Positions 54,447 through 57,510 of a stretch of 57,672 bases of DNA are shown one piece after another. Position 1 is the stretch's first letter, and each line of letters begins with the position of its first letter. The position numbers were made by a program, and so were the translations under genes. The DNA is taken from contig JAFYLS010000032.1 in assembly GCA_017550035.1 (NCBI GenBank), forward strand, positions 1 through 57,672. The letters are read 5' to 3'. Below the pieces are notes generated by a model, which was given only the letters and a program-made list of their open reading frames with translations, was not told the origin of the DNA and searched no databases. The DNA is from Clostridia bacterium. GTDB taxonomy: Bacteria; Bacillota; Clostridia; Christensenellales; Aristaeellaceae.

Positions 54447-54480
54447 GCGGCATGCTAACTGTGTGAAAAGAGCATGCTGC
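54447..54480 (+). promoter_or_regulatory. Hairpin in the manA-murB gap
   Basis: Ten-bp stem GCGGCATGCT/AGCATGCTGC (one G-T pair) with a 14-base loop and no T-run, 20 bases before murB. It may affect message stability or translation. Confidence 0.45.
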
Positions 54481-54500
54481 GCAGGAGTGATGTAACCGTT

Positions 54501-55403
54501 ATGTGGAAGAACAAACTGTTTGAGACCGCAAAAGACTGTGTGCTGATAGAGAAGGCACCGCTTTCCGACTATACAACTTTCCGCGTGGGCGGACCTGCTG
54601 AAATTTTGGCAAAGCCGCAAACGGAAGAAGCACTGTGTTCGCTATTGGACTGGGTGAAAAGTGAGGCGGTTCCTTTTCTTCTCATTGGCAACGGAAGTAA
54701 TTTGTTGGTTCGCGACGGCGGTTTTGACGGACTGGTTATCCATATTGGCAATGCGTTGGGTGATGTTCGTATGGAGGGCAACTGCCTCATTGCCCAGGCG
54801 GGCGCATTGCTGTCGAAAGTGGCTACGGTGGCAGCGGACAACAGCCTTGCCGGGATGGCGTTTGCGCATGGCATTCCCGGCTCTTTGGGCGGAGCTGTGT
54901 ACATGAATGCCGGTGCCTACGGCGGAGAAATGAGCCAGATTATAGAATGGGTTCGTGTTTGGACGCCTGATGGGGTAAAAAAGTGGAACGTTGATGAGAT
55001 GGGCTTTGGTTATCGCCATTCCCGATTGATGGAAGAGAATGCCGTGGTGCTTGCTGCCTGCTTGAAACTACAGGTGGGTGAACGTGAAGCAATTCGCAGC
55101 CAAATGAAAGAACTGATGCAGCAGCGTAAGAGCAAGCAGCCGCTGGAATATCCCAGCGCAGGTTCTTTTTTCAAGCGTCCTCAGGGTCACTTTGCTGGTG
55201 CGCTGATCGAAAATGCCGGGCTGAAAGGCTTTACCATCGGCGGTGCGCAGATCAGCGAAAAGCATGCCGGTTTCCTGATCAATCACAACCATGCAACGGC
55301 AGCTGATGTGCTGAATGTGATGCGTGCCGTGCAGGAAAAAGTGTTTGAAGAGACGGGTGTGCAGATGGAGAATGAAGTGCGGATTGTAGGGAAGGATCAA
55401 TGA
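54501..55403 (+). CDS. murB: UDP-N-acetylenolpyruvoylglucosamine reductase
   Basis: 300 residues from ATG 54501, with AGGAG 13 bases upstream; an ATG at 54474 is in frame but has a poor site. FAD-binding motifs are YTTFRVGGPAE, GNGSNLLV and IPGSLGGAVYMNAGAYGGE. The catalytic Ser lies in PSAGSFFKRP. It makes UDP-MurNAc for peptidoglycan. It is of the type II short class with conserved C-terminal VQEKVFEETGV. It overlaps whiA by 4 bases. Confidence 0.96.
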   Translation: MWKNKLFETAKDCVLIEKAPLSDYTTFRVGGPAEILAKPQTEEALCSLLDWVKSEAVPFLLIGNGSNLLVRDGGFDGLVIHIGNALGDVRMEGNCLIAQAGALLSKVATVAADNSLAGMAFAHGIPGSLGGAVYMNAGAYGGEMSQIIEWVRVWTPDGVKKWNVDEMGFGYRHSRLMEENAVVLAACLKLQVGEREAIRSQMKELMQQRKSKQPLEYPSAGSFFKRPQGHFAGALIENAGLKGFTIGGAQISEKHAGFLINHNHATAADVLNVMRAVQEKVFEETGVQMENEVRIVGKDQ

Positions 55404-56350
55404 GTTTTTCCGGACAGGTAAAGCGGGAATTGATGCATTTGCAGCCTGAGCGCAGTTGCTGCCAGTTGAGCGAACTGAGTGCGTTGACGCAATGCTGCGC
55501 GTCGTTGGTGCTGCGTGGCGGAGGCCGTATGAGTGTGGTATATCAGGTGGAGAATATAGCGCTTGCAAAGCGAATATTTTTGCTTCTGAAAGCGCGTCTG
55601 AATATTATTCCCACCATTGAATATACCTTTTCTCCGCGCTTTGGAGGACGGCGAATCTGTATGCTGACAGTGCCGGAAAGCGACAGCCGTAAATTGCTGG
55701 TCAATGTGCGTATGCTGCGTCAGAGTGAAAGCGGCGATGTACTGCGTTCACTTCCGCGTTCTGCTATTTCCAAAAGGTGCTGCCGTAATGCCTATCTGAG
55801 AGGTGCATTCCTGGGCGCCGGTTCTATATTGGCGCCGGATAAAGGGTATCATCTGGAGTTTGTGGCATCGTCCAGTGAACGTGCAGGCGCCATCAAATAT
55901 GTTCTCGAAAAATGTGATCTGCACCTTGCGGATACCGTTCGCAGGGGAAATACTGTACTGTATGCCAAGCGTGGGGATGATGTGGTATCCCTGCTCGGGA
56001 TGATGGGGGCCAATCAGGCGCTGATGGACATGGAAAACGCGCGCATTACCCGCGAATCCCGAAACCAGGCCAATCGCGCGGCCAACTGCGACCAGGCCAA
56101 TACCATGAAGCAGATTTCTGCTGCGCAGAAACAGGCCGATGCCATCATGCTTTACAGGGAAAATCCTGCGCTTCCGCTGCCGGAAGATTTACAGGAACTG
56201 GCTAATCTCCGTTTGGAATACATGGAAGCATCATTGGAGCAGCTGGGTGAAATGATGCATCCAAAATTGACCAAGTCGGGCGTGAATCACCGGATGCGAA
56301 AACTGATAAAGTTTATTGACGACCAAACAAAACTACAGCAAGGGGAATGA
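55400..56350 (+). CDS. whiA: WhiA DNA-binding regulator
   Basis: 316 residues, normal length. An N-terminal LAGLIDADG-like domain (FSGQVKRELMHL, then CCRNAYLRGAFLGAGS) is followed by a C-terminal helix-turn-helix (DLQELANLRLEYMEASLEQLGEM, then LTKSGVNHRMRKL). It binds chromosomal DNA and affects cell division and sporulation in Gram-positive bacteria. Usually rapZ and yvcK precede it; here it directly follows murB. The fusion gene starts 2 bases after its stop. Confidence 0.95.
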   Translation: MSFSGQVKRELMHLQPERSCCQLSELSALTQCCASLVLRGGGRMSVVYQVENIALAKRIFLLLKARLNIIPTIEYTFSPRFGGRRICMLTVPESDSRKLLVNVRMLRQSESGDVLRSLPRSAISKRCCRNAYLRGAFLGAGSILAPDKGYHLEFVASSSERAGAIKYVLEKCDLHLADTVRRGNTVLYAKRGDDVVSLLGMMGANQALMDMENARITRESRNQANRAANCDQANTMKQISAAQKQADAIMLYRENPALPLPEDLQELANLRLEYMEASLEQLGEMMHPKLTKSGVNHRMRKLIKFIDDQTKLQQGE

Positions 56351-56352
56351 AC

Positions 56353-57378
56353 ATGATTTGCTTGAAGATGAACCTGGGGCACTTGACGCCTTTTAACCGT
56401 GACCAGGTTATGCGTTTGATGCAGACCACCTGTAGGTATGATTGTCATATCATGTTTCTGCATAATAACCGCACCATCAATGGCAAGTCTATGCTGGGCC
56501 TTCTTTCTCTGGGAGAAACCGGGGAAGAAATGGTAGAAATTCAGTTTGAAGGCGCTGATGAAGAACAGGCCCTTCGCGATATTCGCCTTTTACTGGAAGG
56601 CGGCGTGCAACCAGAAAAGGACAGGCAGGACGCTGTATTTTTGCTGGGCGTCTTAAAAGAACGGCTGGCTACGCTGATGAAAGAAAACCTGCTGGGGATC
56701 TATGTACACGGTTCGCTTGCCTTTGGCTGCTTCCATTGGAATACATCGGATATTGATTTTCTGGTCGTGGTCAAACAGCCCATGACGCTGGAAGAAAAGA
56801 TTGCCTTTGTAAGAACCATGGAAGAACTTTCGGATGAAGCGCCGCCCAAGGGTTTTGAATGCAGTGTTATGCTGGAAAGCGTATGCCGCGAAATGCCGTA
56901 TCCAGCTCCATTTGAAGTGCATTTTTCCAATATGTGGCGGGAAGAGATCAGGCAGGATGCGGAAGGCTATTGCATGCGTGTGCAGGGGACCGATCCGGAT
57001 CTGACTACGCATGTGCTGTCGCTGCGTCATAGCAATCTGCAAGTGCTGGGACCACAGGCGATGCGGGTATTTGGGCCGGTAAAGAAGGAAAACTGTCTGA
57101 ATGCCATGTATCTGGATACCGATCATGTGCAGGAAAAATTGATGAAGAATGCGATCTATATCATTCTGACCCTTTGCCGGGCAGTGGCATACAAACAGGA
57201 AAACCTGGTGCTTTCCAAGGTGGAAGGCGGAGAATGGGCTATCCGGAATATGCCCAGCCGTTTTCAGGCAGTCATTCAGGCTGCGGTAAATGCCTACCGC
57301 GAAGGCAGAGAAATGTACTTTGATATGGAGGATGCAAAAGAGTTTTGCAATGTAGCCATATCTGAAATGCTGGGGTAA
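56353..57378 (+). CDS. Fusion of Crh/HPr-like domain with AadA-like nucleotidyltransferase
   Basis: 341 residues from ATG 56353, 7 bases after GGGG; ATG 56347 overlaps whiA but is too close to the site. Residues 1-88 match HPr (INGKSMLGLLSLG). With this start the Ser is residue 46, as in HPr and Crh, while residue 15 is Asn, not the phosphocarrier His. Residues about 110-341 follow streptomycin/spectinomycin adenylyltransferases: GS at 120-121, DID at 133-135, a later Glu in GFECSVM, then SLRHSNLQVLGPQAMRVFGP and NAIYIILTLCRA. In Bacillus crh lies at this place. The most likely role is a nucleotidyltransferase controlled through the HPr-like domain; the substrate is unknown. Confidence 0.8.
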   Translation: MICLKMNLGHLTPFNRDQVMRLMQTTCRYDCHIMFLHNNRTINGKSMLGLLSLGETGEEMVEIQFEGADEEQALRDIRLLLEGGVQPEKDRQDAVFLLGVLKERLATLMKENLLGIYVHGSLAFGCFHWNTSDIDFLVVVKQPMTLEEKIAFVRTMEELSDEAPPKGFECSVMLESVCREMPYPAPFEVHFSNMWREEIRQDAEGYCMRVQGTDPDLTTHVLSLRHSNLQVLGPQAMRVFGPVKKENCLNAMYLDTDHVQEKLMKNAIYIILTLCRAVAYKQENLVLSKVEGGEWAIRNMPSRFQAVIQAAVNAYREGREMYFDMEDAKEFCNVAISEMLG

Positions 57379-57477: not shown

Positions 57478-57510
57478 AAAAAGAGGATCGTTTGCACGAT
57501 CCTCTCTTTT
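57478..57510 (-). terminator. Intrinsic terminator of tuf
   Basis: Perfect 10-bp stem AGAGGATCGT/ACGATCCTCT with 4-base loop. On the minus strand it runs into a T-tract. It may also act for the plus strand. Confidence 0.85.

Follow-up and report, generated by a model that had tools for sequence, protein, structure and literature searches.

A Crh/HPr-like domain fused to an AadA-type nucleotidyltransferase directly behind whiA in Clostridia

The gene directly 3′ of whiA in the 57,672-nucleotide stretch analysed here (the window) encodes a single chain in which a Crh/HPr-like domain precedes an AadA/ANT(9)-like nucleotidyltransferase, an arrangement that may bring the enzyme under the control of HPr kinase. 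The two-domain architecture, its conservation among related genomes, the intact catalytic and Ser46 sites and a gene for the kinase HprK can all be read from the DNA. Among 308 genomes of the same family, 31 carry this full-length fusion, and they belong to three genera. Each half is of a known kind and, to the extent that it could be checked, their combination has not been described: a full-text search of open-access papers returned no account of an HPr-nucleotidyltransferase fusion, which agrees with the earlier note on this DNA, whose author knew of no protein of this design.

The fusion ORF is open from either ATG 56347 or ATG 56353 through 57378 (Table 1). The second ATG is the better start, because AAGGGG lies 7 nt upstream of it and just 1 nt upstream of ATG 56347, and because the orthologs can begin at the equivalent codon, which is indeed the start in most orthologs of the fusion gene. 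The earlier note had chosen this same ATG, and residue numbers are counted from it. Only two bases separate the whiA stop codon from the fusion ORF. Downstream of the fusion gene lies a convergent coding sequence that resembles the C-terminal end of EF-Tu.

Table 1. Features of the murB-whiA-fusion locus, in window coordinates.
Feature	Position	Strand	Basis
murB	54474..55403	+	Pfam MurB_C and FAD_binding_4; murB 5′ of whiA
whiA	55400..56350	+	three WhiA Pfam domains
Ribosome-binding site AAGGGG for start 56353	56340..56345	+	sequence; spacing 7 nt
HPr-ANT fusion gene	56353..57378	+	341 aa, stop within coordinates; full length in 31 genomes
Crh/HPr-like domain, residues 1-84	56353..56604	+	Pfam PTS-HPr; Foldseek to HPr structures; β-α-β-β-α-β-α
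Asn15 codon AAC, in place of the PTS phospho-histidine	56395..56397	+	ortholog counts; alignment to His15 HPr
Ser46 codon TCT within NGKSMLG, predicted HPr kinase site	56488..56490	+	Ser in 30/30 fused orthologs
Linker, residues 85-96, start of long predicted helix	56605..56640	+	gapless alignment region; helix 87-112 modelled
AadA/ANT(9)-like nucleotidyltransferase, residues 97-341	56641..57375	+	Pfam AadA_C, PDB alignments, invariance
Terminator-like hairpin 3′ of the fusion gene	57482..57505	+	consensus scan only

The N-terminal domain matches Pfam PTS-HPr at E 1.5e-11 (44.6 bits, cut-off 23), and the remainder of the chain matches AadA_C at E 6e-22 (78.2 bits, cut-off 22.2); both models are matched at E ≤ 0.001 in all 14 aligned orthologs, the window included. 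A chance match to HPr is ruled out by these scores together with the Foldseek results. Across 30 fused orthologs, position 15 is occupied by Asn (19), Ser (8), Thr (2) or Asp (1) and never by His, while N43-G44-K45, Ser46, L48, G49 and L51 are invariant. Arg17 of HPr varies within the fused clade, and the contacts of the domain should therefore differ from those of classic HPr or Crh. An HPr phosphocarrier takes phosphate from Enzyme I on His15; with no His15 and no Enzyme I found, an intact PTS phosphocarrier is ruled out. The HPr fold with Asn15 and Ser46 that the earlier note had recognised, and the Crh-like nature it drew from them, are thus upheld by the Pfam and structural matches, the codons, the lack of His15, the retention of Ser46 and the whiA neighbour.

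As in Crh of Bacillus, the domain has an HPr fold, a replaced His15 and Ser46 in a kinase motif, and its coding sequence directly follows whiA. Crh is a free small protein of ~85 residues, whereas here the domain forms the N-terminus of an enzyme within a single 341-codon ORF and has no conserved Arg17, and the window genome has yielded no CcpA ortholog. Relatives encode a free HPr-like protein of ~90-100 residues behind whiA, and His is absent from residue 15 in every stand-alone whiA-linked homolog compared, which places the loss of His15 before the fusion. Judged by these sequences, a Crh-like character is general for the whiA-linked HPr proteins of this order. The setting also resembles that of the Crh-like proteins of PTS-less Clostridia, whose organism has HprK and little or no PTS, as here: Clostridium cellulolyticum encodes the Crh-like Ccel_0806 and has no HPr ortholog or cognate PTS EII (PMC3656788). 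HPr occurs as a domain of a larger protein in multiphosphoryl transfer proteins as well, fused to EI, IIA and other PTS domains (PMC2405797); those are phosphocarriers in PTS chains, whereas the domain described here lacks His15 and is paired with a nucleotidyltransferase.

The window genome encodes a full-length HprK with an intact P-loop, GESGVGKS, and the signature EIRGIGIIDI. Enzyme I was not detected in this genome or in its congener, and no CcpA ortholog in the window genome exceeds the curated cut-off (best match 59 against 442 bits); both absences are provisional, as the assembly is a draft (88% complete, 123 contigs). With a gene for HprK in this genome and no Enzyme I detected, a role of the fused domain through Ser46 only is plausible. 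Across the order the kinase outlives the PTS: in a set of 60 genomes (the window genome and relatives G001-G059), 55 have HprK and only 10 have Enzyme I. A second small HPr-like protein with the Ser46 motif is encoded elsewhere in the window genome (G000:C120) and could be the main HprK target. The motif DAKSILG is present in this second protein (L057, 6107-6361, minus strand; L118, 3314-3553), whose loop at position 15 is shortened. Most genomes of the family contain weak PTS-HPr matches of about the same size, and the L118 copy adjoins a glutamyl-tRNA synthetase-like gene.

The enzyme half shares both domains of its fold with AadA/ANT(3″)(9) and ANT(9) (PDB 4cs6, 5g4a, 6sxj). Its motifs are GS at residues 120-121, D-x-D at 133/135 and Glu169, and in HMMER alignments S121, D133, D135, E169, R276 and K289 correspond to AadA S36, D47, D49, E87, R192 and K205. 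Mutational work on AadA identified E87 as the catalytic base and R192 and K205 as ATP-binding (PMC4631478). These six residues of the metal, catalytic and ATP sites do not vary among 30 fused and 22 stand-alone relatives, and with AadA_C and the PDB alignments they bear out the complete aminoglycoside-adenylyltransferase-like domain seen in the earlier note. The half is nevertheless only ~20% identical to AadA/ANT(9), and the positions aligned with the substrate-binding residues Trp112 and Asp182 of AadA vary, so that streptomycin or spectinomycin should not be assumed as the substrate; an aromatic residue or His lies one residue off, at position 195, and leaves some doubt over the loss of Trp112. 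All NCBIfam ANT models score far below their cut-offs (ANT_9, 86.9 against 340 bits). An anti-phage or MntA-type antitoxin identity was considered from PADLOC and NCBIfam matches, which are weak and confined to the generic nucleotidyltransferase core; the presence of AadA_C argues against it.

In Foldseek searches with low-confidence AlphaFold models, residues 1-84 match HPr structures, including the HPr of the HprK/P-HPr complex (1kkl) and that of Ruminiclostridium cellulolyticum (7ff5, a phosphocarrier of the same species as Ccel_0806), and the remainder matches AadA/AAD(9). The HPr fold that the earlier note had expected within residues 1-88 is accordingly recovered, at the modest confidence of models built from two or three sequences (mean pLDDT 61 and 68). 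The full-length model (mean pLDDT 61, three sequences) is of a confidence at which domain contacts are not interpretable; it contains a helix spanning residues 87-112. The junction between the HPr domain and the enzyme contains no indels in the 14 aligned orthologs, which come from three genera.

Two of the carriers, the window genome and a congener, belong to one genus; 28 are species of a second, and the last is a genome of a third. The public MAG SIG365 has the same locus as the congener. WhiA is encoded directly upstream in 29 of 30 fused loci, and the remaining locus begins at a contig end. This distribution excludes a sequencing error or frameshift joining two genes, which the earlier note had named as a danger, and answers its call for a search of genomes for co-occurring HPr and AadA domains. 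The fused members form one clade in both the nucleotidyltransferase-domain tree and the WhiA tree (support 0.99 each), and the simplest reading of the sequences is one fusion event in the ancestor of the three genera followed by vertical descent. The fusion was not found in one genome of the second genus (G030), through loss or incompleteness, and outside the three genera none was found among 396 genomes sampled from the order, 391 from the class and 398 from the phylum, some of them members of the family. Unfused adjacent genes that could represent an operon intermediate were not seen in three genomes (G219, G220, G148). Close pairs give dN/dS values of ~0.02-0.27 in the HPr half and ~0.05-0.18 in the enzyme half; by these values both halves are clearly constrained and under purifying selection.

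Stand-alone nucleotidyltransferases in the same bacterial family are located elsewhere in the genome, and many share a chain with, or adjoin, GNAT and APH enzymes. Single open frames combine the enzyme with GNAT acetyltransferase domains (L011, L123, L125, L130, L133), an APH kinase (L126), a nucleoside phosphorylase-like domain (L011) or a P-loop kinase-like domain (L131), and at L116 the stand-alone enzyme adjoins an APH gene. The subfamily is a remarkably promiscuous fusion partner in this bacterial family. At L127 (residues 1-258), and also at L100, L126 and L128, a conserved N-terminal domain of ~255 residues is fused to the nucleotidyltransferase; it carries the motif IGHEYIIYLLKKAL, an HE-containing helix, and in L127 Pfam gives no match for it at E 0.01.

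The closest annotated plasmid relatives of the enzyme half lie in Campylobacter jejuni resistance clusters that contain aph(3')-IIIa or aadE, aad9, an AAA ATPase, an APH/choline kinase family protein, GNAT and aph(2'')-If. These proteins (WP_050574726.1 and WP_021424055.1), uncharacterised and annotated as aminoglycoside adenylyltransferase domain-containing, are 36% identical over the enzyme domain and have the same catalytic motifs; unlike the fusion, they are stand-alone, plasmid-borne and situated among resistance genes. The Campylobacter relative is encoded between an APH-family gene and a GNAT gene (L141, 5998-6780; L142, 7986-8780). Because relatives are joined to or beside GNAT and APH enzymes and one lies in a resistance cluster, an association and not proof, a small-molecule, aminoglycoside-type target is favoured over a protein or tRNA. 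Among the three classes of target that the earlier note had left side by side, genomic company thus speaks for the small molecule, and the other two are less favoured.

Our leading reading, held tentatively and at a little short of an even chance, is that an aminoglycoside-type nucleotidyltransferase has been captured by a Crh-like domain, transfers AMP to a small molecule and is controlled by HprK at Ser46. A whiA-linked Crh-like protein that had lost His15 and kept Ser46 would have been fused once to the N-terminus of the nucleotidyltransferase in the ancestor of the three genera. Through its Asp-Asp-Glu metal site, the enzyme half would nucleotidylate, probably with AMP from ATP, a hydroxyl group on a small molecule resembling an aminoglycoside or aminocyclitol, and the HPr half would act in cis as its regulatory module. 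HprK would phosphorylate Ser46 of the fused domain when glycolytic carbon is abundant, and this may alter enzyme activity or partner binding. Phosphorylation of the fusion by HprK, its effect and direction, and the substrate are parts of the scheme that we infer. Direct gating of a nucleotidyltransferase by carbon status, through HprK-dependent phosphorylation of a Crh-like domain within the same polypeptide, in bacteria lacking a detected Enzyme I, is a possibility that we regard with some reserve. A precedent for Crh acting on an enzyme is the Crh-MgsA interaction of B. subtilis, as cited in PMC10714963.

A carbon-controlled nucleotidyltransferase could instead have a housekeeping role and act on a cellular target, such as a metabolite, WhiA or a cell-wall enzyme, or a tRNA, and not on an antibiotic. 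The vertical inheritance of the fusion through 28 species of one genus, its fixation at a core locus behind murB-whiA and the lack of conservation of the drug-binding residues of AadA speak for this, as does the link of WhiA and Crh with central metabolism and cell division in Bacillus (PMC10714963). We nevertheless consider it rather unlikely: the nearest relatives accompany GNAT and APH enzymes and a resistance cluster, and no protein- or RNA-binding element is seen in the fusion.

The link between the halves may also be read differently. Since the same nucleotidyltransferase joins many partners, the HPr fusion could have begun as chance, and the chain might carry two functions without crosstalk, the HPr half acting Crh-like in trans and the enzyme half travelling as a passenger. 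That the whiA-linked HPr is a separate gene in relatives, and that the HPr half is conserved in its own right, would suit such an arrangement; but the indel-free junction, the lack of any re-splitting of the gene within the clade, the variable Arg17 and the failure to find a CcpA ortholog as a partner in trans make it improbable. Least probable is a degenerate HPr fold that serves only partner binding or oligomer formation and is no kinase target: the drift at position 15 and Arg17 would fit it, whereas Ser46 and the NGKS-LG motif stay invariant while position 15 drifts, and HprK is present.

In PTS-poor Clostridia, many of which keep HprK and Crh-like proteins with largely unknown targets, the fusion names a candidate target. 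It also suggests that a resistance-type enzyme has been domesticated at a core cell-division and cell-wall locus. If the proposed gating by HprK is true, the fusion would tie carbon catabolite signalling physically and directly to the modification of small molecules, and could let the sugar supply switch an antibiotic-modifying type of enzyme on or off in gut-type Clostridia. If the enzyme does modify an antibiotic under carbon control, the drug tolerance of gut bacteria could depend on diet or growth state.
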